A stretch of DNA of 61,266 nt from Bacteroidota bacterium (GTDB lineage: Bacteria; Bacteroidota; Ignavibacteria; Palsa-1295). The notes under the pieces were generated by a model. The model was not told where the DNA came from, did no database searches, and was given only the letters and a program-made list of their open reading frames with translations. This document shows positions 4,606 to 6,934 of this stretch, piece by piece. The position numbers and the translations under genes were made by a program. The DNA lies in assembly GCA_021324685.1 (NCBI GenBank), contig JAJPIQ010000024.1, positions 1 to 61,266 of the forward strand. Reading direction: 5' to 3'. Numbering within the stretch: the stretch's first letter is position 1; each line of letters opens with the position of its first letter.

Positions 4606-5052
4606 TTACTCGGATGTAATAAATGCTCGAAGTTCGTTCGTGAGCCGCTTGATATCTTTCGTCGCACGGGGCGCGATGAAGATCGTATTATCGCCGGCGA
4701 TCGTACCCAAAACGAAGGGCGAGACCATGCTGTCGATCAGTTCGGCAACGCCGTGCGCTCGGCCCGCGAGCGTTTTAATGACGATCATCGATTCGTTGCT
4801 GTAAATGCCACGGACTTCATAGCTCAAAAGCGCACGCACGCGCGAGTCCTCATCGTTTTGGCCGATCGTATACCGGGGCCCTTCCGGAGAAGCGCGCCGC
4901 GTGACACCCATTTCCGAGAGATCCCGCGACAGCGTGGCCTGATTGACTTTATGACCCGCTTTCTTCAAAAGCTTCTGCAGTTCCTCCTGGGAACCGACAT
5001 CCTGCTTGGTAATGATCTCACGAATGCTAAATTGTCGCTGGTTCTTCGTCAT
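4606..5052 (-). CDS. argR: Arginine repressor
   Basis: ArgR/AhrC family, 148 aa. The N-terminal winged helix-turn-helix carries the recognition stretch NQATLSRDL at residues 37-45. The C-terminal arginine-binding and oligomerisation domain contains [14 protein letters not shown]. The start codon at 5052 lies inside the end of the upstream argB/argF gene (26-bp overlap, different frame), so translation is coupled. It probably binds the twin palindromes upstream of argC (9308-9341) with arginine as co-repressor and so controls its own operon; this is inference from position and sequence. Confidence 0.95.
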
Positions 5053-6934
5053 GCTTCAATGGAATAAATGATGAGGGTTCTTCCTTTTGGAAGAAGTTCG
5101 CTTCCGGCGAGGCCAGAAGCGTGGTCAGAATCGCCTTTTGCACATGAAGTCGATTTTCAGCCTGTAGGAAAATTACGGAATTTCTGGAGTCGATCGCCTC
5201 ATCGGTGATTTCTTCGCCGCGATGCGCCGGCAGGCAATGCATGATGAGCGCATTCGGATGCGCGAGCTGAAGAAGTCCTTTGTTCACCTGGAAGGAGTGG
5301 AACGCTTTTTTCCGCGCCACCTGCTCGGCTTCCTGTCCCATGCTCGTCCAAACATCCGTATAAATGACGTCCGCGCTATCGGCCGCGACGCGGGGATCGT
5401 CTAAGATTTCGATCGTACTGATTCCGCTTTGATTCGCATACTCGAGGATCTTCGGATCGGGATGGTACCCGGCCGGCGCGGCGATCGCCAAATGCATCGG
5501 ATAGATTGCCGACATCTCGAGCCACGAATGGGCGACATTATTTCCGTCCCCGATAAAGGCAATCTTAAGTCCCGGTTCCAATTTTCCGTGCTGACGGATG
5601 GTATAGAGGTCCGCAAGGATCTGGCAAGGATGTCCAAAGTCGGTCAGCGCATTCACAACCGGAATGCTTGCATGTTCAGCAAGGCCGAGCAGGACATTAT
5701 GATCGAAGAGCCGTGCAACAATGCAGTCGGAGTAGGACGAAAGCACTTTGGCAACATCGGCAACCGGTTCGCGCTCCCCGAGCCCGATCCCTTCATTCGC
5801 AAGATAGAGCGACGTAGCACCTAACTGAGAAACGGCGACTTCGAAGGAAACTCGCGTACGTAGCGATGGCTTTTGAAAGAGGAGCGTCACGTGTTTGCCG
5901 GTCAGCGGTTTGACATCGGTGTGCTTCAGGACATCGGTCAGGTGCATGAGGTCTTCCACGTCCTGTTTCGTCATCACGGTGAGGTCGAGGAGGTCGTGCT
6001 TCGAATGCGTTCGGACCGGCGCCGCATCGGAGGAGCGATATCCGATCTTCGGTTTTGTCGGGTTTCCAAATACCTTCTCTTCGCGAATGATCTGGGTCCC
6101 GACGCCTTCATGCGTAAAAATTTCGAGCAGGAGCGAATGCCTGGCCGCGCCGTTGATCAAGTGAACTTTTTTCACCCCATTGGCCAGGGCTTCGAACGCG
6201 GCGTTCACCTTTGGGATCATCCCACCGGTGATCACTTCCTGTTTAATGAGCTGCTGCGCCCGTGCATTCGTAAGCGTGGGAACGAGTTCGCCATCTAAGA
6301 GCACGCCTTCGGTGTCGGTAAGGAAAAAGAGTTTTTCCGCGCCCAAGGCCTGGGCGATCGAACTGGCTGCAATATCGGCATTGATATTATAGATCTGACC
6401 GTCGGTCGAAACGCCAACCGGTGCAATGACCGGCATCACGCCGGAGGCGATCAGTTTATTGAGCCATTCGACATTGACCTGCTCGATCTCGCCGACGAGC
6501 CCAAGATCGTATCCTTTGGGAGCGTATTTTTTCGCGGTAAGGAGATTATTATCGATCCCGCAGAGCCCAACGGCATTTCCGCCCGCGCGATTGACCAGGG
6601 CGACGACTTCCTTATTGACGCTGCCGGCAAGTGTCATGACGACCGTTTCGAGCGTGGCCGTATCGGTATATCGCTGCCCACCCACGAAGCGGGTCTCCAT
6701 TCCGAGTTTTTGCGAAAGGTCTGTCACGGCATTTCCGCCGCCATGAACGATCACGACGTTAATGCCGATCTTTTTGAGGAGCGTCACATCTTTTGCAAAG
6801 GACTCTTTCAGGGCCTCGTCCGTCATGGCGGCGCCGCCGTACTTAATCACGAAGGTCGTCCCCTCATACCGCTGGATGTACGGCAGGGCGCTGGTAAGAA
6901 TTTCTTCCTTGGTCTGTAGATTCGTTTCTTTCAT
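5027..6934 (-). CDS. argB-argF: ArgB-ArgF fusion: acetylglutamate kinase + ornithine carbamoyltransferase
   Basis: One 635-residue frame holds two complete arginine enzymes. Residues about 10-285 are N-acetylglutamate kinase: KYGGAAM at 31-37, HGGG at 64-67, and GGMIPKV at 237-243. After a linker (about 286-312), residues about 313-610 are ornithine carbamoyltransferase: carbamoyl-phosphate site SLRTR at 357-361, HPCQ at 435-438, ornithine loop DVWTSMG at 527-533 and catalytic HCLPAHRGEE at 566-575. The SMG motif argues for ornithine rather than acetyl- or succinyl-ornithine as substrate. These enzymes catalyse step 2 and the later carbamoylation step. The usual separate argB and argF genes are absent here. 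It overlaps argR by 26 bp. Confidence 0.95.
   Translation of the reverse strand: MKETNLQTKEEILTSALPYIQRYEGTTFVIKYGGAAMTDEALKESFAKDVTLLKKIGINVVIVHGGGNAVTDLSQKLGMETRFVGGQRYTDTATLETVVMTLAGSVNKEVVALVNRAGGNAVGLCGIDNNLLTAKKYAPKGYDLGLVGEIEQVNVEWLNKLIASGVMPVIAPVGVSTDGQIYNINADIAASSIAQALGAEKLFFLTDTEGVLLDGELVPTLTNARAQQLIKQEVITGGMIPKVNAAFEALANGVKKVHLINGAARHSLLLEIFTHEGVGTQIIREEKVFGNPTKPKIGYRSSDAAPVRTHSKHDLLDLTVMTKQDVEDLMHLTDVLKHTDVKPLTGKHVTLLFQKPSLRTRVSFEVAVSQLGATSLYLANEGIGLGEREPVADVAKVLSSYSDCIVARLFDHNVLLGLAEHASIPVVNALTDFGHPCQILADLYTIRQHGKLEPGLKIAFIGDGNNVAHSWLEMSAIYPMHLAIAAPAGYHPDPKILEYANQSGISTIEILDDPRVAADSADVIYTDVWTSMGQEAEQVARKKAFHSFQVNKGLLQLAHPNALIMHCLPAHRGEEITDEAIDSRNSVIFLQAENRLHVQKAILTTLLASPEANFFQKEEPSSFIPLKHDEEPATI

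Follow-up and report, generated by a model that had tools for sequence, protein, structure and literature searches.

A putative bifunctional N-acetylglutamate kinase–ornithine carbamoyltransferase encoded in the arginine operon of one bacterial family

In Moritella and other marine gammaproteobacteria, ArgH is fused to an acetyltransferase domain, giving ArgH(A) (PMC1382215). Synthase–kinase enzymes (NAGS/K) have been described from Xanthomonas and Maricaulis (PMC1865377, PMC3236213), and kinase–reductase (the yeast NAGK–reductase gene) and synthase–reductase genes are also mentioned in the literature (PMC4490483). Here we analysed a stretch of 61,266 nucleotides from a Bacteroidota bacterium (the window), in which ArgB and ArgF share one chain encoded by a gene that we call argBF. 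Like ArgH(A), argBF joins two non-consecutive enzymes of the arginine pathway inside an arginine operon, but the partners in ArgH(A) are ArgH and the acetyltransferase domain (PMC1382215). As in NAGS/K and the yeast NAGK–reductase, the kinase domain is joined to another arginine-pathway domain. In those proteins, however, the partners catalyse neighbouring steps, and the kinase is linked to an acetyltransferase or a reductase, whereas in argBF it is linked to a carbamoyltransferase. ArgB–ArgF is a new domain combination, although fusion of operon-neighbour enzymes is itself already known. No description of a natural ArgB–ArgF fusion was found in the open-access literature, and absence there is no proof. 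Judging from the sequence, we think it probable (about 0.8) that argBF encodes a true bifunctional N-acetylglutamate kinase–ornithine carbamoyltransferase, translated as a single polypeptide from an argC-J-[BF]-R-G-H operon under ArgR control.

The features of the locus are collected in Table 1. A preliminary description had placed ArgB and ArgF in one open frame at 5027–6934, with the active-site motifs of both enzymes retained. The coordinates proved exact, the frame being on the minus strand only; the plus-strand reading of the same interval is full of stops. Pfam assigned AA_kinase to residues 27–261 of the 635-residue chain, OTCace_N to 314–448 and OTCace to 455–605. The resulting layout is ArgB (≈ 7–285), a linker of 27 residues (286–312) and ArgF (≈ 313–608), followed by a mostly disordered tail (609–635). 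The motifs could be located residue by residue, and every catalytic motif checked was retained in both halves. An AlphaFold2 model built from a 33-row alignment contained two well-folded domains (mean pLDDT 82.9, pTM 0.52). Neither half looks unusual for its enzyme family. In the model, the placement of ArgB relative to ArgF is left unfixed.

Table 1. Features of the argBF locus (positions in the window)
Feature	Position	Strand	Remarks
argH, argininosuccinate lyase	1955..3337	minus	NCBIfam profile
argG, argininosuccinate synthase	3338..4585	minus	NCBIfam profile
argR, arginine repressor	4606..5052	minus	passes the cut-off for both ArgR Pfam domains
argBF fusion gene, 635 aa	5027..6934	minus	ATG at 6934, stop 5027-5029
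ArgF (ornithine carbamoyltransferase) half, residues 313-608	5111..5998	minus	TIGR00658, NF001986
linker, residues 286-312	5999..6079	minus	pLDDT<50; fast-changing
ArgB (N-acetylglutamate kinase) half, residues 1-285	6080..6934	minus	TIGR00761; nearest structures 2bty/2buf; model helices
argJ	6970..8277	minus	TIGR00120/NF003802; ATG overlaps argC stop
argC, first operon gene	8274..9296	minus	TIGR01850 389.7 bits
second ArgR-box-like palindrome	9308..9321		20 bp from first, upstream of argC
ArgR-box-like palindrome TGCATAAATATGCA	9328..9341		upstream of argC

The ArgB half passed the argB equivalog of NCBIfam (TIGR00761) with 254.8 bits against a curated cut-off of 151.3. The membership motifs KxGG, HGGG, N-x-NAD and GGM-x-PK were all present (IKYGG at 30, VHGGG at 63, NINAD at 183 and GGMIPK at 237). 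In Foldseek alignments, it was 51% and 47% identical to the hexameric, arginine-inhibited kinases of Thermotoga maritima (2bty) and Pseudomonas aeruginosa (2buf), respectively. The match is almost full-length (271–282 aligned columns) and takes in the N-terminal helix and the C-terminal LLEIFT..GVGT segment. Where many kinases have DGR, argBF has NGA and T. maritima NGG. Unlike the stand-alone 2bty and 2buf kinases, the argBF kinase carries ArgF at its C-terminus. In arginine-inhibitable kinases, a kinked N-terminal helix joins three dimers into D3 ring hexamers (PMC3329491). The modelled N-terminus of argBF has short helices at 9–15 and 17–23 with a break at residue 16, and aligns to the extension in 2bty and 2buf. 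In the model, this helix pair matches the kinked helix of the arginine-inhibited hexameric kinases. By analogy, the ArgB half is probably feedback-inhibited by arginine.

Bacteroidota are known for carbamoyltransferases that use acetylornithine or succinylornithine. The ArgF half of argBF instead passed the ornithine carbamoyltransferase equivalog TIGR00658 (344.1 bits; curated NCBIfam cut-off 280.85). It fell well under the cut-off for N-acetylornithine carbamoyltransferase (140.2 bits versus 288) and also failed that for aspartate carbamoyltransferase (136.6 versus 236.95). The motifs SxRT, HPxQ, the SMG loop and HCLP were all found (SLRTR at 357–361, HPCQ at 435, DVWTSMGQ at 527 and HCLPAHR at 566). 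The SMG and HCLP motifs and the equivalog match suit ornithine, and we rejected an acetylornithine or succinylornithine specificity; the succinylornithine reading was judged by these motifs and the equivalog. The nearest solved structures include the anabolic ornithine carbamoyltransferases of Arabidopsis (8qeu) and Pyrococcus furiosus (1a1s), to which identity was 45–48%, with SxRT, HPCQ, SMG and HCLP in common. Unlike these enzymes, the ArgF half has no start of its own and begins within a longer chain.

The genome that contains the window is a draft in 89 contigs, and unfused relatives exist, as might be expected if an assembly or sequencing error had joined two genes. This reading has a negligible probability. 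An unbroken argBF (58–85% identity) occurs in 10 of the 12 other genomes of the family, so that 11 of 13 family genomes, including the window's own, have the same domain order in one open frame. The fused linkers are open in all 11 although their sequences differ, and we regard an error as ruled out. The preliminary description had proposed that such an error would be betrayed by relatives with a stop codon and a start codon in the linker region. These do occur, but in other families, whereas all same-family fusions are open; this points to a derived fusion and not to an error. The named relatives are uncultured Ignavibacteriae/Bacteroidetes genomes. In one of the two remaining family genomes (G009, 67% complete), a contig ends inside argF, beside argR-argG-argH. 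In the other (G011), argBF, argJ and argG are all absent, a pattern suggesting that a contig is missing or that the pathway was lost. One of the 10 relatives with the fusion (G004) has two different full-length argBF fusions, on contigs C27 (locus L009) and C11, with 83% and 80% identity. These probably stem from two organisms, since the genome is listed at 7% contamination.

Searches that covered the class (391 genomes), the phylum (395) and a second class (98) found no uninterrupted ArgB–ArgF fusion, convergent or otherwise, outside the family. In the families whose junctions were read (f3, f17, f18 and f50), argB adjoins argF with a stop between them. For example, an f3 relative reads ...GTQMTHEG*VIPMKKDFLSL... 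(asterisk, stop), where the window has ...GTQIIREEKVFGNP...SKHDLLDL.... In family f37, the joint argB/argF match is interrupted by one or more stops, and argB is separated from argF. The gene order argC-J-B-F-R-G-(H) is common to fused and unfused relatives, consistent with the earlier suggestion that the fusion follows the operon order. In separate maximum-likelihood trees of ArgB and ArgF, one branch set all 11 fused sequences apart from the unfused ones, with support of 100/99 for ArgB and 95/96 for ArgF. At the level of sequence, this shows a single origin of the fusion within one bacterial family. Most likely, the argB stop and the argF start were lost once, when the two genes were operon neighbours in the ancestor of the family. 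In a further family (f4; L017 in G034 and L019 in G025), the unfused argB has diverged far more (44% identity) than argF (55–59%), and its match begins near residue 17–24. In the f4 argB, the N-terminal helix associated with arginine inhibition may be missing, and the gene is possibly a replaced argB.

Among the fused relatives, the linker is 12–48% identical, compared with 56–91% for the domains, and its length varies (14–28 aligned residues). This indicates that the linker is a flexible tether with little constraint. Yeast Arg5,6 is a polyprotein that is cleaved after translation, and the exposed, disordered linker of argBF would fit such cleavage. We consider such processing highly improbable, as no conserved cleavage motif was seen among the fused relatives and linker identity is low even between close ones. 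Free ArgF from an internal start was likewise rejected. The original argF methionine is absent from the fusions, neither a conserved internal start nor a ribosome site was found across the fused relatives, and in one fused member the junction stretch contains no in-frame start codon of any kind.

The preliminary description had also pointed to the presence or absence of stand-alone copies. Whole-genome searches with AA_kinase and OTCase_N revealed neither a separate argB nor a separate argF in the window's genome (98% complete), and the fusion is its only ArgB and ArgF. By size and motif, the remaining AA_kinase matches are two aspartokinase-like open reading frames and one UMP-kinase-like gene; the remaining OTCase_N match is PyrB-like. 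A hidden second copy of either enzyme was thereby dismissed. The genome has argD above cut-off, outside the operon on contig C15. No ArgE above the family cut-off was found, with a strict model that passes in only 2 of 14 control genomes. ArgJ converts N-acetylornithine and glutamate to ornithine and N-acetylglutamate (PMC4490483). Since ArgJ is present and ArgE above cut-off is absent, the arginine pathway is probably cyclic.

In a bifunctional argBF, each half would fold and act on its own, held to the other by a flexible linker, the ArgB half phosphorylating N-acetylglutamate and the ArgF half carbamoylating ornithine. Because these substrates are the two products of ArgJ, both halves would act directly on ArgJ products, and the tether would keep the two enzymes that use up these products, made by the enzyme of the adjacent gene, at a ratio of 1:1. 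The preliminary description had argued that the steps are not consecutive and that the fusion is thus not simple channelling. This is true of the linear chart, but the steps are linked through the products of ArgJ. The ArgJ link is our hypothesis, from pathway logic, for why the fusion was kept; the balance of dosage proposed earlier is a possible role. However, unfused sister families have the same ArgJ operon and manage without the fusion, and a neutral fusion of close neighbours is for this reason at least as probable as retention through ArgJ.

According to the neutral account, a stop was lost between packed operon neighbours, tolerated, and inherited with no benefit to function. Such an account addresses retention and is compatible with a bifunctional enzyme. 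The genes were already adjacent (20 bp or less apart in some unfused relatives) and the linker is unconstrained in sequence and length, in line with this account as are the sister families. We place it slightly short of even odds, given that the fusion is kept without visible reversion in four genera, down to 58% identity.

Selection for coupling, in which a hexameric ArgB ring with two ArgF trimers helps to remove the two products of ArgJ or lets ArgF share in the arginine signal, appears rather unlikely. ArgB retains the kinked N-terminal helix of arginine-inhibited D3 ring hexamers (PMC3329491). Ornithine carbamoyltransferase is trimeric (PMC4581275), which makes the two symmetries compatible and a ring with two ArgF trimers geometrically conceivable by analogy. 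That both substrates are ArgJ products (PMC4490483) and that ArgE above cut-off is absent would also fit. Against this, the disordered linker fixes no geometry, the pTM of 0.52 gives no confident interdomain arrangement, and nothing indicates an interface between the halves. The further step to a symmetric machine, an arginine-sensing ArgB ring bearing ArgF trimers in which the feedback signal or closeness to ArgJ sets ornithine consumption, is improbable; if true, it would constitute end-product control of ornithine carbamoylation via tethering. Irrespective of the cause, argBF is a clean, one-time fusion of operon neighbours in a central pathway, and the unfused order kept in sister families allows a before/after comparison. 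It is also a natural setting in which to ask whether enzymes must be consecutive in a linear pathway to be fused or whether the shared products of a branching ArgJ suffice.

The operon order argC-J-[BF]-R-G-H is conserved. The argR gene starts inside the end of argBF, with 26 bases shared; against TIGR01529, argR scored 129.8 bits, slightly under the cut-off of 130.45. Palindromes of the form TGCATAWWTATGCA matched only twice in the window at up to two mismatches (expected, 0.36), both upstream of argC. Most of the relatives examined, whether or not their genes are fused, have similar pairs ≈ 20 bp apart upstream of argC; relative G450 had none. As argR lies inside the operon, the pair are probably ArgR operators, as predicted from sequence. 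The argJ frame can be extended upstream to a TTG at 8307. The ATG at 8277, which overlaps the argC stop (ATGA) and leaves ≈ 34 residues ahead of the family match, is the likelier start. Finally, three perfect tandem copies of the 17-bp unit TTAGCTCCGATAACTGG (plus strand) occupy 6936–6986, an interval that includes the 3' end of argJ as well as the ribosome-binding region ahead of argBF. The length of the unit is not divisible by 3. The unit was absent from the loci of every other fetched genome, and the repeat therefore looks like a recent local triplication.
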